Source: a virus. Taken from it: a stretch of DNA of 28,336 nt. Every line of letters starts with the position of its first letter. Within the stretch, counting starts at the first letter, position 1. The translations under genes were made by a program, and so were the position numbers. Positions 5,187 through 24,140 of the stretch are shown here, piece by piece. The stretch is taken from the IMG/VR virus record IMGVR_UViG_3300048110_000273, positions 1-28,336 of that record. One strand, given 5' to 3'. Below the pieces are notes generated by a model. That model was not told where the DNA came from. It did no database searches and worked only from the letters and a program-made list of their open reading frames with translations.

Positions 5187-5359
5187 ACACGTTCACCCAC
5201 CTTGGCTACAGGAGGACACCGGAAGTCATACGGTATCCGTATTATTCTCGGGTAATGATAGTAAAAATAAGAAACGTCTCTAGGACAACGATACACACAC
5301 GCCTTGTACATGTCGCCGCCATGCATCCCCACCAGCACAGCGGTGAGAGCGCACAACAC
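5183..5359 (-). CDS. Short secreted-like Cys-containing peptide (58 aa)
   Basis: An unusually short gene filling the gap between two others. It starts with GTG at 5359, whose G overlaps the previous stop codon, and has GGAG seven bases upstream. It ends in an ATGA overlap with the tail-anchored gene. The product has a hydrophobic start ([12 protein letters not shown]), then YKACVYRCPRDVSYFYYHYP and a C-terminal FRCPP, so three Cys outside the hydrophobic start. It looks like a small exported, possibly disulfide-bonded protein. There is no clear lipobox, so it is not a standard o-spanin. Both exact overlaps support that the gene is real. Confidence 0.5.
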   Translation of the reverse strand: MLCALTAVLVGMHGGDMYKACVYRCPRDVSYFYYHYPRIIRIPYDFRCPPVAKVGERV

Positions 5360-12418: not shown

Positions 12419-13056
12419 TATAACTCCCCTCCTAAGCTGCCCACACCCTGAAAATTACGCAACGGATCCACACTTGTACCACGGCGAAGCTGAATGTCCA
12501 ATAATTCAGGAGGGGCCTCACGAGAAGGTGCCATCAAACCCATAGCCTGTGACATCACCCCTCGCTTACCACGATCCAAACTAGCCATAATCCCCGCATC
12601 AACCAAATCTACCGTCTCCTCATCACCATACGGTAAATACTCAAGGCCCGAGAAACGAGAACCATAGTCAGATAAACTCGTGCCGAACTTATCCACCGGA
12701 TTGTCCTCACCACCACTCTCCAAAAACCGCCGCATACCCTTGCGACCACCCAAGTGAGCCATAGCCAACAACGAACTAGGCGTAACCTCAACACCACCAA
12801 CAGTCTTGCCAACATAGTCATCTAATCCAAACTCCTCAACATAATCCAATATGTCCCGCTCATGCCAATCCATCGCCTGCTCCTGCAATGCAGGACTGCG
12901 CAAAAATTCATCCCTCGAAACACCCCGACCCAAAAAATCCTCAAACTCACTAAAACGAGCAGGACCAAATTGATAACCACCAACATACTTACCCTGAACA
13001 ACACCATAATCACCGCTGCTCTCACTACCCAATAACTTACTGCGAAACTCAGTCAT
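12418..13056 (-). CDS. Virion-associated lysozyme-like muramidase / transglycosylase
   Basis: A 212-residue protein with the pattern of phage peptidoglycan-degrading virion proteins of the lysozyme-like superfamily: ESSGDY at 12-17 with Glu12 as likely catalytic acid, then GGYQFGPARF at 26-35, and LLAMAHLGG at 96-104. There is no signal peptide. Such proteins travel in the particle and open the wall during DNA entry; the separate M15 enzyme is the better candidate for lysis. The domain fills about residues 8-125, and the rest is unassigned. The start overlaps the end of the 746-residue gene by four bases. Confidence 0.7.
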   Translation of the reverse strand: MTEFRSKLLGSESSGDYGVVQGKYVGGYQFGPARFSEFEDFLGRGVSRDEFLRSPALQEQAMDWHERDILDYVEEFGLDDYVGKTVGGVEVTPSSLLAMAHLGGRKGMRRFLESGGEDNPVDKFGTSLSDYGSRFSGLEYLPYGDEETVDLVDAGIMASLDRGKRGVMSQAMGLMAPSREAPPELLDIQLRRGTSVDPLRNFQGVGSLGGEL

Positions 13057-15293
13057 AACATATATCCCATAGATCCAAGGCCCGTGAACCGAGTATCACG
13101 AACCATACCTCCATCTCGAAACGCAGAAATCCCCGTCTCCCGTAAGGCACGAAGAAAGTTTTCAGTAATCTCGAACCCCGGAACATCGTGCAATTTCGTG
13201 TCACCACTCCGGTCCCGACCAGCAATGGTTACATTGCCCAACTTCGGCATCTCTAAACCACTGTCCTTCTCTAACTTCGCTAAAATATTCTTAATGCGAC
13301 TCGGAACAATCTTATCATAATATTCCCGCTGACCAGACAAACTACCCATCGTCATATCAAAAGCCATGTCCCCAGTGCCCAACGTGAAAAACTCCAAACC
13401 CTCGTTACTCGGTAAAGCAACCTGATCAAAAGCACTCTTAATCGCCATGTCCGTAACACGATTCGTCTTAAATAACTTCCCTAAACCAACATCCTCCGGA
13501 ACCTGATACCCCGACTCATACTGAAGATCCGATAAAATACTCGCAGCACGACGCTTCTTGTAACTAGGATCCAAACTATCAAACACTTTTGATAGTTCTT
13601 TCGCCGAAAAATCTAGTTCATCGGCAAGATACTTCTTCTTAACATCCGGTGATAACTGATCAAAAAACTCCAGCAATACATCACCACGAGCATCACCAAC
13701 CGACTCCACACTGTTTAACGTTTCCAACATACCCTTCGGTAATGAATCCAAAACATTCCGAGCCTGTACCGCAGATCGAGAACGCTGCGTAATGTCCGAC
13801 TGAATCTCCCCCAAATGAAACGATGAAGTACCCTCAATCCCACCATCCTTAGCCACAGGAAACACAGCAGAACGGTAATGTACAACAGGAACCCCGCGAA
13901 CCGAACCAAAATGCTCGTCAGCACCCGGCAAACCCCGCGCACCATCATCAAAATTCTGGTTTAACGTTAATACCGTCTCCTGATAATCACTCCCACCCGG
14001 AGTGAAATACCCACCATAAGCAACCCGATCCCCCTTTAAAACATTCACAGCAACCGGATCTTCAACTAACTGATCAAAAACCTCATCCAAACTAACCCCG
14101 TCAGGAAAACGATTGCGAAGATCCTTTGTCGCTAAACCACGAGCTTCCAACTCCGCGGGCTTTACACCACGGTTCTCCAACGTCTTCACAAACTGATCAA
14201 CAGAACCAAACTTTTGTTTCGGAAAATTAGACAAAACAGGGTCTAAACTATTCCGCAATACCGAATCCTCGAACAAACCAAACCGAAAACCCGTATGGTC
14301 AAAAGGATTTGGGTCATCAGGATCAAAAACATTTGCAACCGGACCACCCAGAACATTGTCCTCCCGAGTAACACTCACCACAAAACCATCGTCCGGATGA
14401 AAATAATCATTAATAATCTCAGGTGAAACACCAGCATCTTCCGCTAACCGACGAGCCACCCTAACCCGATCCGCAATGTCAATCGTCGCTTCACCAAAAT
14501 TAGCGTCAGCCATACTCATGTCCGGAGAAAACGCCGAAAGTAAATCGTCCTCAAACTCACTAGCACCCAGAATGTCAGGCAAACCATTCGTCCGCAACTG
14601 ACGCAATAACGGCTGTAATATATCCATGTCCACAAATCGAGTGCCCGTATCAACATCAGTCGCCGTCACCGGATCGATTCGAGTAGTAAAGGCAGGCTCA
14701 AACTGATTCTCGTCCGGTAAAAACTCTTCAGGACGTAAAACAACCTCCAAAGTAGCCTCGTCAGGCCCAATAAACGGAACCATGCCAAACGAATCATCAA
14801 TAGGAGGTTCAAATTCTGATTCAAATTCACGATTTAAAAAATCGTAAAAATCGTCTTCAGGAAATTCAAAAGGTGCAAGGGCCTCATCAACATCAACATC
14901 AACAGAAACATCAACAACAGGCTGCTGTAACGCCTGCTCCTGCAAAGCCAATAACTCATCTTCCGAATTAGCACGAGCCAACGCCTCTAACTGAGCCTCC
15001 GCATCAGGACCCGGACTCAAACCAAACATCTCCATTAAAGCTGCCTTGGCAGGCTGCTTTAAAAATCGACCAGCACCCAAAGTTAAAGCAGGGATCAACG
15101 TCTCTAATCCAGCCTCGATCCGGTCCTCTGGCTTCTCGCCCGCCGTGCCAATGCGCCCAGCCGCCTCCATACCACGACGAAGACCCGTCGTCGGAACCAA
15201 ATTAGAAACGTCATCCGCTCCAACCGATTGAAACAACGGACGAAGGTTCGGGGGAATATATTGCGTGATCGGTAAAGAAAATCTATCGGCCAT
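13053..15293 (-). CDS. Large virion protein with polyvalent-protein-like domain
   Basis: A 746-residue acidic protein and first gene of the late operon. Residues 1-350 are mostly low complexity, with acidic stretches and VDVSVDVDVDEAL at 127-139. Residues about 375-510 read like a diverged domain of phage large polyvalent proteins: ELEARGL (381-387), GGYFTPGGSDYQETVLTL (427-444), HF (461-462) and GEIQSD (495-500), which corresponds to EIQSDWHQ in those proteins. A later EYYDKIVPSRIKN (657-669) fits the second conserved block. The end is RDGGMVRDTRF then TGLGSMGYML. Such domains occur in proteins injected with phage DNA. An ejection role is inference. Confidence 0.5.
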   Translation of the reverse strand: MADRFSLPITQYIPPNLRPLFQSVGADDVSNLVPTTGLRRGMEAAGRIGTAGEKPEDRIEAGLETLIPALTLGAGRFLKQPAKAALMEMFGLSPGPDAEAQLEALARANSEDELLALQEQALQQPVVDVSVDVDVDEALAPFEFPEDDFYDFLNREFESEFEPPIDDSFGMVPFIGPDEATLEVVLRPEEFLPDENQFEPAFTTRIDPVTATDVDTGTRFVDMDILQPLLRQLRTNGLPDILGASEFEDDLLSAFSPDMSMADANFGEATIDIADRVRVARRLAEDAGVSPEIINDYFHPDDGFVVSVTREDNVLGGPVANVFDPDDPNPFDHTGFRFGLFEDSVLRNSLDPVLSNFPKQKFGSVDQFVKTLENRGVKPAELEARGLATKDLRNRFPDGVSLDEVFDQLVEDPVAVNVLKGDRVAYGGYFTPGGSDYQETVLTLNQNFDDGARGLPGADEHFGSVRGVPVVHYRSAVFPVAKDGGIEGTSSFHLGEIQSDITQRSRSAVQARNVLDSLPKGMLETLNSVESVGDARGDVLLEFFDQLSPDVKKKYLADELDFSAKELSKVFDSLDPSYKKRRAASILSDLQYESGYQVPEDVGLGKLFKTNRVTDMAIKSAFDQVALPSNEGLEFFTLGTGDMAFDMTMGSLSGQREYYDKIVPSRIKNILAKLEKDSGLEMPKLGNVTIAGRDRSGDTKLHDVPGFEITENFLRALRETGISAFRDGGMVRDTRFTGLGSMGYML

Positions 15294-15394
15294 CGGTTCT
15301 CTCAGAAAAACTCAAATGAAATTATACCCGAAATAATTTGAAAGCGATAGGGGCCTCAAAGACGGGATTCCCTATAGGGGAAAAACCCAATAAA

Positions 15395-15423
15395 ATTATA
15401 TCGCAATGAATTTACAAAACCAA
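15395..15423 (-). promoter_or_regulatory. Candidate promoter of the late operon
   Basis: On the minus strand TTGGTT (15418-15423) is followed after 17 bases by a perfect TATAAT (15395-15400), 100 bases upstream of the first late gene. Two more minus-strand TATAAT copies lie at 15321-15326 and 15425-15430 without a good upstream box. The whole stretch 15301-15430 is AT rich compared with the GC-rich block to its right. Confidence 0.35.
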
Positions 15424-15532
15424 CATTATACAGACACCAGACGCACCGCACCGCCCAAAACGGGGGGATGGGGGTAGCAAGAGCCCCGATCCGTGCACCC
15501 AGATTTGCCAAAGTAACCCCTAACAACGTAGA

Positions 15533-15564
15533 GTCGCCTGTTAACCGAGCAAGCTCGGGGCGAC
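15533..15564. repeat. Repeat A, copy 1 (two-level hairpin)
   Basis: A 32-base element with an outer stem GTCGCC/GGCGAC around TGTTAACC and an inner palindrome CCGAGC-AA-GCTCGG. A second 32-base copy lies at 18305-18336 with an outer stem GTTGCC/GGCAAC. Confidence 0.75.
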
Positions 15565-15908
15565 GAGAAGAAAAGACAACGGGCCTTCAGCCCGTGCGGT
15601 ATCCGAACCGCAGTCGGCCAACGGCTATAGCCCCGTTGGATCAGGCACTTGGAGCTCGCCTGACCGTACCGATATGCGCCCAGTCAGGGCCTGCGTTCCC
15701 TCTCCATGCTACGTCGATCCACCCTGCGCCGGGAACATCCTTCAGATGTTCTCACGCCTTGAGTGTCTCGTCGTGCACGGAGCCTCTTCCTCTGGTCAGC
15801 CTGACTGAGAGCGCCACCGCGTAGACTATACTACACACACATGAACCCCCGTGGGCATCGTCCCTCCGGGAAGCCCCATTGCCCAATGCGTCGTCAACCC
15901 CATCACGT

Positions 15909-15929
15909 TTATTGTGTCCTTGCGGACTC
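15909..15929. repeat. Repeat B, copy 1
   Basis: TTATTGTGTCCTT followed by GCGGACTC. Copy 2 at 18351-18370 has the same 13 bases followed by CGGACTC, a one-base indel. The GTCC/GGAC arms form a small hairpin, here followed by a T-run (CTTTTTG at 15933-15939). Confidence 0.7.
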
Positions 15930-16270
15930 ATTCTTTTTGATGGGGTCGGAAGGTCACGGTGGACGTTAGGTCATTTGTATTGGACGAAACGTAACCTTGA
16001 GGCCCCAACAGATCTCTTTTGCTCTGGCGGACTTGCGGGCCGTAGTGTCCTCGTCCGGTGAGCAAATATGCGAGGTCAGGCTCAAGTTTACGAAACGTCA
16101 AATCCAAAGGACCTTACGTCAACCGCCGCTTCGCTGACTACCCGAGCGGGGACGCTCGGCTTCCTTGACCATTCCCTCGTTCCTCGGCGCGATTGGGCAG
16201 GCGGCAGGATGCGGGGACAATGCACGAAGTTCATGTGCGTTGTATTATCCATAACATAGGAGATCTCAAC

Positions 16271-16702
16271 ATGGATATCACAGTACTCAAATTGTCAGAC
16301 GAAGTAAGCGAAATCAACCGGGCTCTGCGCAACCTTAACTACGACTGGACAGACTTCGATTGTAGGGTCGAAGGTGACGGGACAGGGTTCGACGCGCAGC
16401 ATGTAAGGTTTCAGCTCTACTATCGAGGGCTACCTTCGAGCGAACATATGTCGGAAACATGGAGGTTCAACTTCGATGGAGAGTACAACCTTCAAGACAA
16501 CCTGACGCAAGTCACTGAAGCTATCTTGAACTTCATTCAGAACCTTCCAACAGGCGACACGCTCAAGCAGCAAGACATGGTTCGACTCTTCGAAAAAGGT
16601 AAGCGCCTAGCCGAAGAGCTCGGGATCGACGGGGATTTCATCAACCCGCTGGTCGGGATCATGGAAAAGTTGGCAACCAATGCCGTCACTTATCGCAAGT
16701 AA
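16271..16702 (+). CDS. Hypothetical protein, first gene of plus-strand cassette
   Basis: A 143-residue acidic soluble protein. ATG at 16271 is preceded by AGGAGA with good spacing, so I chose it over an upstream in-frame ATG at 16193 inside the hairpin block. The start is MDITVLKLSDEVSEINRALR, a predicted helix; the middle has mixed beta content (HVRFQLYYRGLP), and residues 95-143 are helical. No catalytic or DNA-binding motif is recognisable. It is followed by a strong GC hairpin and then the next gene. Function unknown. Confidence 0.55.
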   Translation: MDITVLKLSDEVSEINRALRNLNYDWTDFDCRVEGDGTGFDAQHVRFQLYYRGLPSSEHMSETWRFNFDGEYNLQDNLTQVTEAILNFIQNLPTGDTLKQQDMVRLFEKGKRLAEELGIDGDFINPLVGIMEKLATNAVTYRK

Positions 16703-18237: not shown

Positions 18238-18246
18238 CTAACACCG

Positions 18247-18281
18247 AAGGGTACCCGGCTCCTACGTCGCTGGGTATCCTT
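18247..18281 (+). terminator. Terminator-like hairpin after the cassette
   Basis: AAGGGTACCC (18247-18256) pairs along its full length with GGGTATCCTT (18272-18281), with one G-U pair and a 15-base loop. The following sequence TCTCATC is only weakly T rich, so efficiency is uncertain. Confidence 0.55.
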
Positions 18282-18304
18282 CTCATCAAAAAGTTTTAAA
18301 AGGA

Positions 18305-18336
18305 GTTGCCTGTTAACCTCGCAAGCTCGGGGCAAC
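18305..18336. repeat. Repeat A, copy 2
   Basis: A 32-base copy of the element at 15533-15564. The outer stem is GTTGCC/GGCAAC, a compensated change of one base pair relative to GTCGCC/GGCGAC. The inner stem differs at two adjacent bases (CCTCGC instead of CCGAGC), which weakens it. Confidence 0.75.
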
Positions 18337-18350
18337 AAAGAAGAAGCGGG

Positions 18351-18370
18351 TTATTGTGTCCTTCGGACTC
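18351..18370. repeat. Repeat B, copy 2
   Basis: TTATTGTGTCCTT followed by CGGACTC. It follows repeat A after only 14 bases here, whereas in the left block the two are about 345 bases apart. Confidence 0.7.
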
Positions 18371-18388
18371 TCTATCCTAGTTCCCATC

Positions 18389-18508
18389 CCCGGCAAGCCC
18401 GGGCCGGGAACCCGCCGCGCCAGAGTCGCAAGGCTCAGGCGCGAGCCGCAAGGCATAAAATCAGCGGCAGCAGAGCCGCAAGGCCTCGAAAAGAGACGCA
18501 AGGTCCTC
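18389..18508 (+). repeat. Cluster of GCAA-loop hairpins
   Basis: Four hairpins with loop GCAA closed by C-G occur at 18423-18436 (GAGTC/GGCTC), 18445-18454 (GCC/GGC), 18473-18487 (GAGCC/GGCCTC with one bulge) and 18493-18508 (GAGAC/GGTCCTC with bulges). A related hairpin with loop CAAGC lies at 18389-18403. As RNA from the plus strand these would be GNRA tetraloops. The last two copies lie inside the 3' end of the nuclease gene on the other strand and encode two similar peptides, FEDLASL and FEALRL. Confidence 0.6.
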
Positions 18509-23057: not shown

Positions 23058-23565
23058 TACACGCGAGTTAATTATTACGAACATCATTCCGAATGGCGGC
23101 GCTGGTTTTGGATTATGTCAGCAAGAGGAGTGCGATATATTTATCAGCAATCATTTGCTCGAAGGAACGGGGATTGATGTTGGTGATATTGTGAAGGCGA
23201 TTGTTGTTCCTAATAACTTTGGGAATCCCAACACGCCGTACAAGGCCATACGGATTGATCGGTTGAAGGGTTTTGATTCGGTTCTTGAGGACAATGAACC
23301 GGAGCCTGAGCCTGAGCCTGATGAGCCAACGTTGCAGGAGCGTGTGTTGGAATTGTTGGAGGGGAATCCGGACGATTACTTTACGGTCAACGAGATCATG
23401 GAGGAGTTGGAGTTGGACATTGGTCACAACGAGGTTTTGTATTCGTGTGATGGTTTGCATTCGATAGGGTCGATATGCAAGGCTTCGGTCTGGGCTCCGA
23501 ATTACACGAAGAAGTCTACGTTTAATTTGTATTCGAAGAACATCACGGCGTTTGCGGTGGAATAA
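23047..23565 (+). CDS. Two-domain protein: OB/cold-shock-like N-terminus, winged-helix-like C-terminus
   Basis: A 172-residue protein; ATG at 23047 with GGAAGG upstream. Residues 7-58 (ELIITNIIPNGGAGFGLC ... DIFISNHLL ... GDIVKAIVV) follow the strand pattern of cold-shock/OB folds: GxGFG, DIFISN and a GDIV turn. An acidic linker with repeated Glu-Pro pairs (residues about 80-95) leads to a C-terminal domain (about 100-165) that reads as a winged helix (TVNEIMEELEL). Nucleic-acid binding is inferred. It is the last gene of the array and is followed by a strong terminator. Confidence 0.5.
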   Translation: MHIDTRELIITNIIPNGGAGFGLCQQEECDIFISNHLLEGTGIDVGDIVKAIVVPNNFGNPNTPYKAIRIDRLKGFDSVLEDNEPEPEPEPDEPTLQERVLELLEGNPDDYFTVNEIMEELELDIGHNEVLYSCDGLHSIGSICKASVWAPNYTKKSTFNLYSKNITAFAVE

Positions 23566-23571
23566 AAAAAA

Positions 23572-23595
23572 GAGGGAGCCGAGAGGCTCCCTTTT
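23572..23595 (+). terminator. Intrinsic terminator, possibly bidirectional
   Basis: GGGAGCC-GAGA-GGCTCCC is a perfect 7-bp stem, followed by TTTT and preceded by a run of eight A, so it can stop transcription from both sides. It separates the plus-strand array from the convergent minus-strand ribbon-helix-helix gene. Confidence 0.85.
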
Positions 23596-23644
23596 AGTTT
23601 ATGAGGGCAGATAAGGCCACAGGCGTGGGCCTATCGAGCAGTGT

Positions 23645-23812
23645 TCAGAGTTTACTGGATTCCAGATCTTTTTCAAACTCTTTTTTAATCATGTAGGATA
23701 TTTGTTTTGACAGGGCGCGATGCTCTCGCTTCGAGAGTTGTCGCAGTCGGTCATGATCCTCGGGAAGAATAGCGACTGTCTTCCACTTCACGTTTTGTGT
23801 TTCGTCTAGCAT
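23645..23812 (-). CDS. Ribbon-helix-helix (Arc/CopG-like) small protein
   Basis: A 55-residue gene, easy to miss. The product contains VKWKTVAILPEDHDRLRQLS, then KREHRALSKQISYMIKKEF. This is a strand followed by two helices with the LPEDxxxxLRxLSKxxxRxLSxQIxxMIxxE pattern of Arc/CopG/MetJ regulators, which bind operators as dimers through the strand. It is likely a transcriptional regulator of the phage, perhaps autoregulating through AT-rich palindromes nearby. No toxin or antitoxin partner is adjacent. Confidence 0.6.
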   Translation of the reverse strand: MLDETQNVKWKTVAILPEDHDRLRQLSKREHRALSKQISYMIKKEFEKDLESSKL

Positions 23813-23894
23813 TTGTTTTTTCCTTTGCCTTCTGCTGCTTTCGCAGGGCCTTCTCCCATTTTCGGGAGAGGCAGTGTATCTTTTCCCGTTTCAT
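23751..23894 (-). CDS. 47-residue very basic peptide, uncertain
   Basis: Starts ATG at 23894, six bases after the stop of the upstream gene, with no clear ribosome site, so it would need coupling. The product begins MKREKIHCLSRKWEKALRKQ and is extremely Lys/Arg rich. Its end overlaps the ribbon-helix-helix gene by 62 bases in another frame. It spans the hairpin CTCCC/GGGAG at about 23839-23854. Either a real small nucleic-acid-binding peptide or a leader of the RHH gene. Confidence 0.3.
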   Translation of the reverse strand: MKREKIHCLSRKWEKALRKQQKAKEKTNARRNTKREVEDSRYSSRGS

Positions 23895-23900
23895 TATATA

Positions 23901-24140
23901 CTATATAGAAACCTTGCCAAGTCTGGCCTCACGATTTTTACGACAGCCTTCGTTTTCGTATGTCCAGCTTCGGATTTGTGAGATGTTTTTGCCTGACCAT
24001 CCATCGGTCAGGGCTTTGGCTACATCCAGATCGAGGCCCGTGAGCCGAGCGATCTCGGCTCCAGCGGTATCTCGGGTACGCATCCCTTTCTTTCGATCCA
24101 CGATGCATTCGGTTACTTCGGTGGCGTCAAAGTCAGCCAT
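23901..24140 (-). CDS. Small protein downstream of the helicase, possible HTH
   Basis: A 79-residue basic protein. Residues 22-48 (RDTAGAEIARLTGLDLDVAK) and following look like a helix-turn-helix; the C-terminus (SQIRSWTYENEGCRKNREAR) is a basic tail. GGAG lies upstream and the start is inside the end of the helicase gene (28-base overlap), so the two are coupled and may work together. Function not recognised. Confidence 0.5.
   Translation of the reverse strand: MADFDATEVTECIVDRKKGMRTRDTAGAEIARLTGLDLDVAKALTDGWSGKNISQIRSWTYENEGCRKNREARLGKVSI

Follow-up and report, generated by a model that had tools for sequence, protein, structure and literature searches.

A candidate large structured RNA with exchanged bodies next to a phage late operon

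The minus strand of the window (the whole 28,336-nt stretch of viral DNA analysed here, positions 1 to 28,336 of IMG/VR record IMGVR_UViG_3300048110_000273) carries a conserved, structured and non-coding element between a late operon and a divergently transcribed gene, and close relatives have exchanged the body of this element as a unit. We consider it probable that the stretch from about 16245 to 15579 encodes a stand-alone RNA of an uncatalogued class that acts in trans. A first-pass annotation, made from the sequence, had marked a hairpin-dense block at 15470-16240 and suggested that it might be a large structured RNA of a phage, possibly of a new class, a proposal now supported by covariation, by fold energy compared with shuffles and by the lack of an Rfam match. 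The block itself is real, non-coding and structured; better limits are about 15579-16245, on the minus strand (Table 1). With covariation-supported structure, no ORF and a phage genome as its source, the element would belong to the general kind of large structured phage non-coding RNAs.

Anatomy and fold of the candidate RNA

The gene-free block sits between the first late-operon gene and the divergent gene, the latter having no PHROG or Pfam match, and no tRNA was found in the 28-kb window. That the block holds no credible gene, as first annotated, is confirmed across 17 homologues, in which the longest ORF on either strand lies within the shuffled range except in L106 and, marginally, in L055, on one strand only.

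The RNA was located via its homologues by blastn, patterns and a covariance model; its predicted 5′ end on the minus strand lies near 16245 and its 3′ hairpin finishes at 15579. According to the folds, a long closed rod at its 5′ end would be followed by another rod and then by a tail made of three hairpins. P1, the helix closing the 5′ rod, is present in all MFE folds of the window, L107, L108, L119, L106, L113, L006 and L126 and is also supported by the alignment fold of nine sequences of one body type (type A), while the inner module of the 5′ domain is swapped among relatives; the structures of variable modules rest on single-sequence folds. The 3′ strand of P1 holds a (TG)n run (GTTCATGTGTGTG in the window), and by eye a (TG)n or TTG-rich run on the 3′ side of the closing helix is kept in all body types though the bodies are unalignable. 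This run could slide or pair alternatively with GACGACGCAT. A pairing of GACGACGCAT with the (TG)n strand, obtained with MAFFT/RNAalifold from the 3′ half alone, was rejected, as adding the 5′ half puts the (TG)n strand in P1. In the middle domain, the terminal loop is one of two CTTCA loops, and pairs 154-157 of A1 show two-sided changes. Hairpin P4 reads TGCGGTTCGGATACCGCA in the window and GTCAGTTCGAATACTGAC in L008.

Table 1 Features of the putative RNA and its surroundings in the window
Feature	Position	Strand	Basis or remark
Putative structured RNA gene, whole, ~670 nt	15579..16245	−	Fold z, homologues, body-swap limits; ends approximate
5′ domain, a long rod with P1 (GCACATGAACTTCGTGCATTGTCCC paired to GGGACGATGCCCACGGGGGTTCATGTGTGTG) as its closing helix	15833..16238	−	Closing helix in MFE folds and in the alignment fold
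Middle domain, irregular hairpin rod ending GAACATC-TGAAG-GATGTTC	15677..15816	−	MFE and alignment folds; limits approximate
Tail hairpin P3, CCAACGG / CCGTTGG	15618..15639	−	7 pairs, pairing in 100% of cells, two-sided changes in 5 of the pairs
Tail hairpin P4, loop UCGRAN	15595..15612	−	99% of cells paired, 2 pairs compensated
Tail hairpin P5, then U-rich TTGTCTTTTCTTCT, terminator-like 3′ end	15579..15595	−	Pairing in 94% of cells, two-sided changes in 4 pairs; terminator-like match
3′ element GTCGCC-CCGAGCTTGCTCGG-TTAACA-GGCGAC	15531..15564	−	Behind the tail; repeat 88% identical to second copy
Promoter-like motif AAATTNATTNSGGTATAATTTCATT, upstream copy	15389..15413	−	Between the RNA and the late operon
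Promoter-like motif AAATTNATTNSGGTATAATTTCATT, downstream copy	15315..15339	−	In tandem with the upstream copy
First late-operon gene, function unassigned	13053..15293	−	Downstream of the RNA; followed by lysin, terminase and portal genes
Divergent gene, function unassigned	16271..16702	+	ORF list and sequence; ribosome site at most ~25 nt from the RNA 5′ end

The evidence for structure in the window's block comes from its fold as a whole and not from the number of its hairpins. The first-pass annotation had counted at least ten perfect hairpins, and ten non-overlapping ones do exist (arms of 5-7 bp, loops of up to 30 nt), but their number is at chance: dinucleotide shuffles give 10.8 ± 2.1 under the same loop limit and reach ten in 224 of 300 cases, so the plain count, standing at the shuffled mean, is no evidence for a structured RNA. 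With loops of up to 12 nt there are six hairpins, compared with 5.8 in shuffles; arms of at least 6 bp are the sole enriched class (5 versus 1.6, with 5 reached in 10 of 500 shuffles). The two identical CTTCA loops that had been pointed out are present, at 15579-15595 and 15733-15751. The minus-strand MFE of the whole block is −342.8 kcal/mol versus −297.5 in shuffles, a z of −7.4 (−7.15 in the batch of 17 homologues, whose z values are rough, with 15 shuffles each), and the plus strand has a z of −3.9 against shuffles. The worry that shuffled sequence might give the same stems is thus answered by the fold, which is better than in shuffles though the plain hairpin count is at chance. Folding in 300-nt sliding windows underestimates the block because its helices are long-range, and the picture of a row of local hairpins has to be given up, as the RNA consists mainly of long-range helices.

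Conservation, covariation and exchange of bodies

About 35 IMG/VR contigs, mostly fragments, carry the RNA in the same location; the searches that recovered them used neighbouring proteins, a repeat element of 26 bp and three patterns derived from the RNA. Its size across relatives is ~670-920 nt, and the homologous blocks fold with a larger excess over shuffles than the window's block (z of −14.2 in L008, −12.4 in L010 and −9.1 in L021; −9 to −15 in most). A covariance model built from the tail, R1, scores 63-95 bits for the window and the other carriers tested, gives only marginal scores elsewhere, and identified one carrier (L056) that all patterns had missed. Some relatives show no matching RNA. 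In L052/L054, around 5240-5320, an RNA of a second body type (type B) has lost ~130 nt, the tail with its three hairpins among them, which amounts to a deletion of the tail that arose in nature. Pattern matches in L109, L111 and L112, all in coding sequence, were judged likely chance because the flanking tail hairpins are absent, and a single match of the tail pattern in a scan of one prokaryote genome (Kribbella, L130) received no score from the covariance model.

Covariation among homologues had been proposed as a check on the structured RNA, and it is strong in both tail and full-length alignments. Across 17 distinct sequences, the 75-nt tail with its three hairpins and 20 pairs has standard pairs in 97.6% of cells, and 11 of the 20 pairs have changed on both sides; the covariation score of 0.303 compares with 0.124 in shuffles and was reached in none of 500. 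Sliding the partner by 1-3 columns lowers tail pairing to 13-42%, a control that, as we caution, favours the tail structure since this came from the same alignment. The tail keeps conserved loop letters beside single-nucleotide compensation. The full-length type A alignment (nine sequences) has a z of −10.5 against column shuffles, with 19 two-sided pairs versus 6.7 (maximum 13 in 40 shuffles). For type B (four sequences) the z is −10.9; its 40 two-sided pairs barely exceed the largest number in shuffles (39), and support for type B therefore comes more from energy than from covariation.

Pairwise alignment of five pairs of relatives revealed flanks that are 90-98% identical around RNA bodies, of ~480-870 nt, that are unalignable: the window and L008 (flanks 93.8% and 93.5%; bodies of 629 and 865 nt), L113 and L110 (97.2% and 97.6%), L055 and L056 (94.2% and 94.6%), L108 and L021 (95.1% and 98.4%), and L107 and L105 (89.9% and 90.8%). 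The 5′ junction of the swaps coincides with the predicted RNA start and the 3′ junction falls in or just before the tail; between the window and L008, alignment stops at 16244 and resumes at 15615. The converse also occurs, the bodies of L110 and L008 being 96.6% identical in differing backgrounds. Across the swaps the slot is constant and the tail mostly so. Of all the observations, this exchange speaks most strongly for the RNA being an independent unit whose replacement is favoured in some way.

The nearest named relatives by TerL (51-61% identity) are phages 023Pt_psg01 and DSL-LC04 and the Pelagibacter phages HTVC027P and HTVC023P, and structured gaps occur among them as well. HTVC027P has an unannotated 548-nt gap in the same slot (L116 9177-9724 = MN698241 17671-18218; z −5 to −6) whose end is formed by a strong intrinsic terminator, GCAGGGG...CCCCTGC-TTTTTTT, oriented as the late operon is, and 023Pt_psg01 has an unannotated structured gap on the plus strand (L114 10127-10453; z −7.7). 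The tail model matches none of the gaps of these four phages, which are therefore at most analogues in the same slot, that of HTVC027P being syntenic. In the window itself, a second non-coding stretch at 23400-24110 folds with a z of −5.8 (300-nt window at 23401, minus) and −5.1 (at 23851, plus); it is 98% conserved in the L010 contig, and short inverted pieces of it occur in the L108 and L117 contigs.

Late-operon context, strand and alternative readings

The chief rival explanation makes the block a leader that acts in cis on the late operon, either as an attenuator or as an antiterminator region of the put/6S type, with no independent RNA. Late-leader RNAs such as the lambda 6S region and HK022 put are structured RNAs that head a phage late operon, and the window RNA is likewise structured, on the matching strand and at the matching position; P5 with its U-rich stretch is terminator-like, and a canonical terminator closes the syntenic gap of HTVC027P. 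The window RNA is, however, several times larger than these RNAs, and its size range far exceeds that of known leaders. The promoter-like motif AAATTNATTNSGGTATAATTTCATT has two matches in the window, where none is expected, both in tandem behind the RNA and none elsewhere; it is possibly a phage-specific late promoter. In a scan of 20 relatives this TATAAT-type motif lies behind the tail in 14, separating the RNA from the operon in most of them, and the first genes downstream belong to several unrelated groups; varied downstream genes together with a promoter-like motif after the tail indicate that the RNA is not tied to one gene. Nor would a switch tuned to one operon be expected to have its whole body swapped with the operon intact. 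Size, motif, variable downstream gene and body exchange make a cis-acting leader less likely, and we regard it as unlikely.

The functional strand could instead be the plus strand, with the block serving as a large 5′ leader of the divergent cassette that starts at 16271. The ribosome site of the divergent gene abuts the block, which makes a plus transcript through it conceivable. Two further points weigh against a stand-alone minus-strand RNA: divergent transcription of the neighbour leaves scant space for separate leaders, and a scan for a sigma-70 promoter upstream of the RNA on the minus strand found no clear one. The complement also beats shuffles in fold energy, which is to be expected of any helix-rich DNA; in L106 it does so by a slightly wider margin than the RNA strand. 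Yet the RNA strand has the lower MFE in all 17 homologues. In the type A alignment the energy is −349.8 on the minus strand versus −304.2 on the plus strand, the column-shuffle z −10.5 versus −6.5, the G-U fraction 0.115 versus 0.047 and the number of one-sided compatible changes 25 versus 7, the excess of G-U pairs and one-sided changes pointing to RNA on the minus strand; the column-shuffle z of type B does not separate the strands (−10.9 versus −11.6).

The layout supports the minus strand too. The 3′ element has a second copy at 18303-18336 with a compensating change in its outer stem, lying in the same orientation behind the minus-strand operon of the terminase small subunit, and the HTVC027P terminator is in matching orientation. 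Both copies of the element are retained in most close relatives. On these grounds we judge a plus-strand leader improbable. The convergent gap at 18240-18460, which holds the second copy, also carries GAGTCCGAAGGACACAATAA, a near match to GAGTCCGCAAGGACACAATAA within the 5′ domain of the RNA.

Just as improbable, in our judgement, is a role of the block as DNA (a replication origin, or a packaging or recombination site, with hairpins) with pairing as a by-product. Terminase genes are near, the cumulative GC skew reaches its minimum a few kb from the block, and recombination at the block edges is clear; such a site would nevertheless sit poorly with the one-strand preference and G-U tolerance in type A, with a tail whose 20 pairs show single-nucleotide compensation and whose loop letters are conserved, and with long irregular rods in place of palindromes. 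A decayed insert, which the first-pass annotation had listed, or chance hairpins in a non-coding gap would agree with a perfect-hairpin count equal to the shuffled mean, but this reading has a negligible probability, being already refuted by covariation and contradicted by conservation in ~35 contigs and by the fold energies.

Known RNA classes and proposed role

Rfam 15 was compared at gathering thresholds with the window plus 20 homologous loci, and at E values of 5 or less with the blocks of the window, L008 and L106. No family matched: the RNA is not GOLLD or ROOL, and no group I/II intron, HEARO, OLE or known ribozyme was matched in the same searches. Matches at the permissive threshold to Bp1_162, MIR856, mir-4856, GlsR13 and mir-2968 were taken as chance. 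Searches with blastn against annotated phages gave no match, and no published description of the RNA was found in the open-licence literature.

The closest likeness is to GOLLD (Rfam; Weinberg 2009; PMC12286853), which is phage-encoded, 600-900 nt long and elaborately structured, with a conserved 3′ and a less conserved 5′ part that recall the shared tail and exchanged bodies here, a resemblance and not a sequence kinship. ROOL (~600-660 nt, of phage or prophage origin and elaborately structured) is similar in kind, and both form homo-oligomeric RNA nanocages (PMC12286853). The window RNA differs from GOLLD in matching no Rfam model at either threshold, in the exchange of whole bodies and in its setting, where a divergent cassette lies on one side, the late operon on the other and no tRNA nearby, GOLLD being often near tRNA islands; it differs from ROOL likewise in the missing model match and tRNA island and in its architecture. 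Packaging RNA of the phi29 type is also phage-encoded and structured, and the window RNA lies near terminase genes; but the window RNA is ~4 times longer, has no Rfam match and occurs in a phage with ordinary small and large terminase subunits.

If a stand-alone RNA is the right reading, a discrete transcript would start in the divergent region and end at the hairpin tail, ahead of the promoter-like motifs of the late operon, and this structured RNA would exert its function in trans in the course of infection. By analogy with GOLLD and ROOL, it would probably be a scaffold or a self-assembling particle (PMC12286853). The tail may be a common handle that helps to form the 3′ end, stabilises the RNA or binds a factor of phage or host. 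The variable body may be the working part, and the selection acting on it would change, with host defence and competing phages as examples of its source. More tentatively, we suggest an allelic-locus RNA class, in which one slot receives unrelated bodies exchanged whole and the RNA carries specificity, such as immunity to or competition with phages or evasion of RNA-directed host defence, possibly as a self-assembled particle; this is possible, though we do not hold it to be the likelier outcome.

Large ornate phage RNAs are few, and GOLLD and ROOL, the best known, have no assigned functions. The RNA described here would add an ornate class without an Rfam match, in phages related by their terminase to the abundant HTVC023P-type pelagiphages, and with it an evolutionary clue that is absent for GOLLD and ROOL: a body replaced as a unit in a constant slot is the signature expected under diversifying selection. 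The same terminase lineage has cultured members, and an HTVC027P infection transcriptome has been published (BioProject PRJNA1253180; PMC12753301), so that the role of such RNAs becomes testable.
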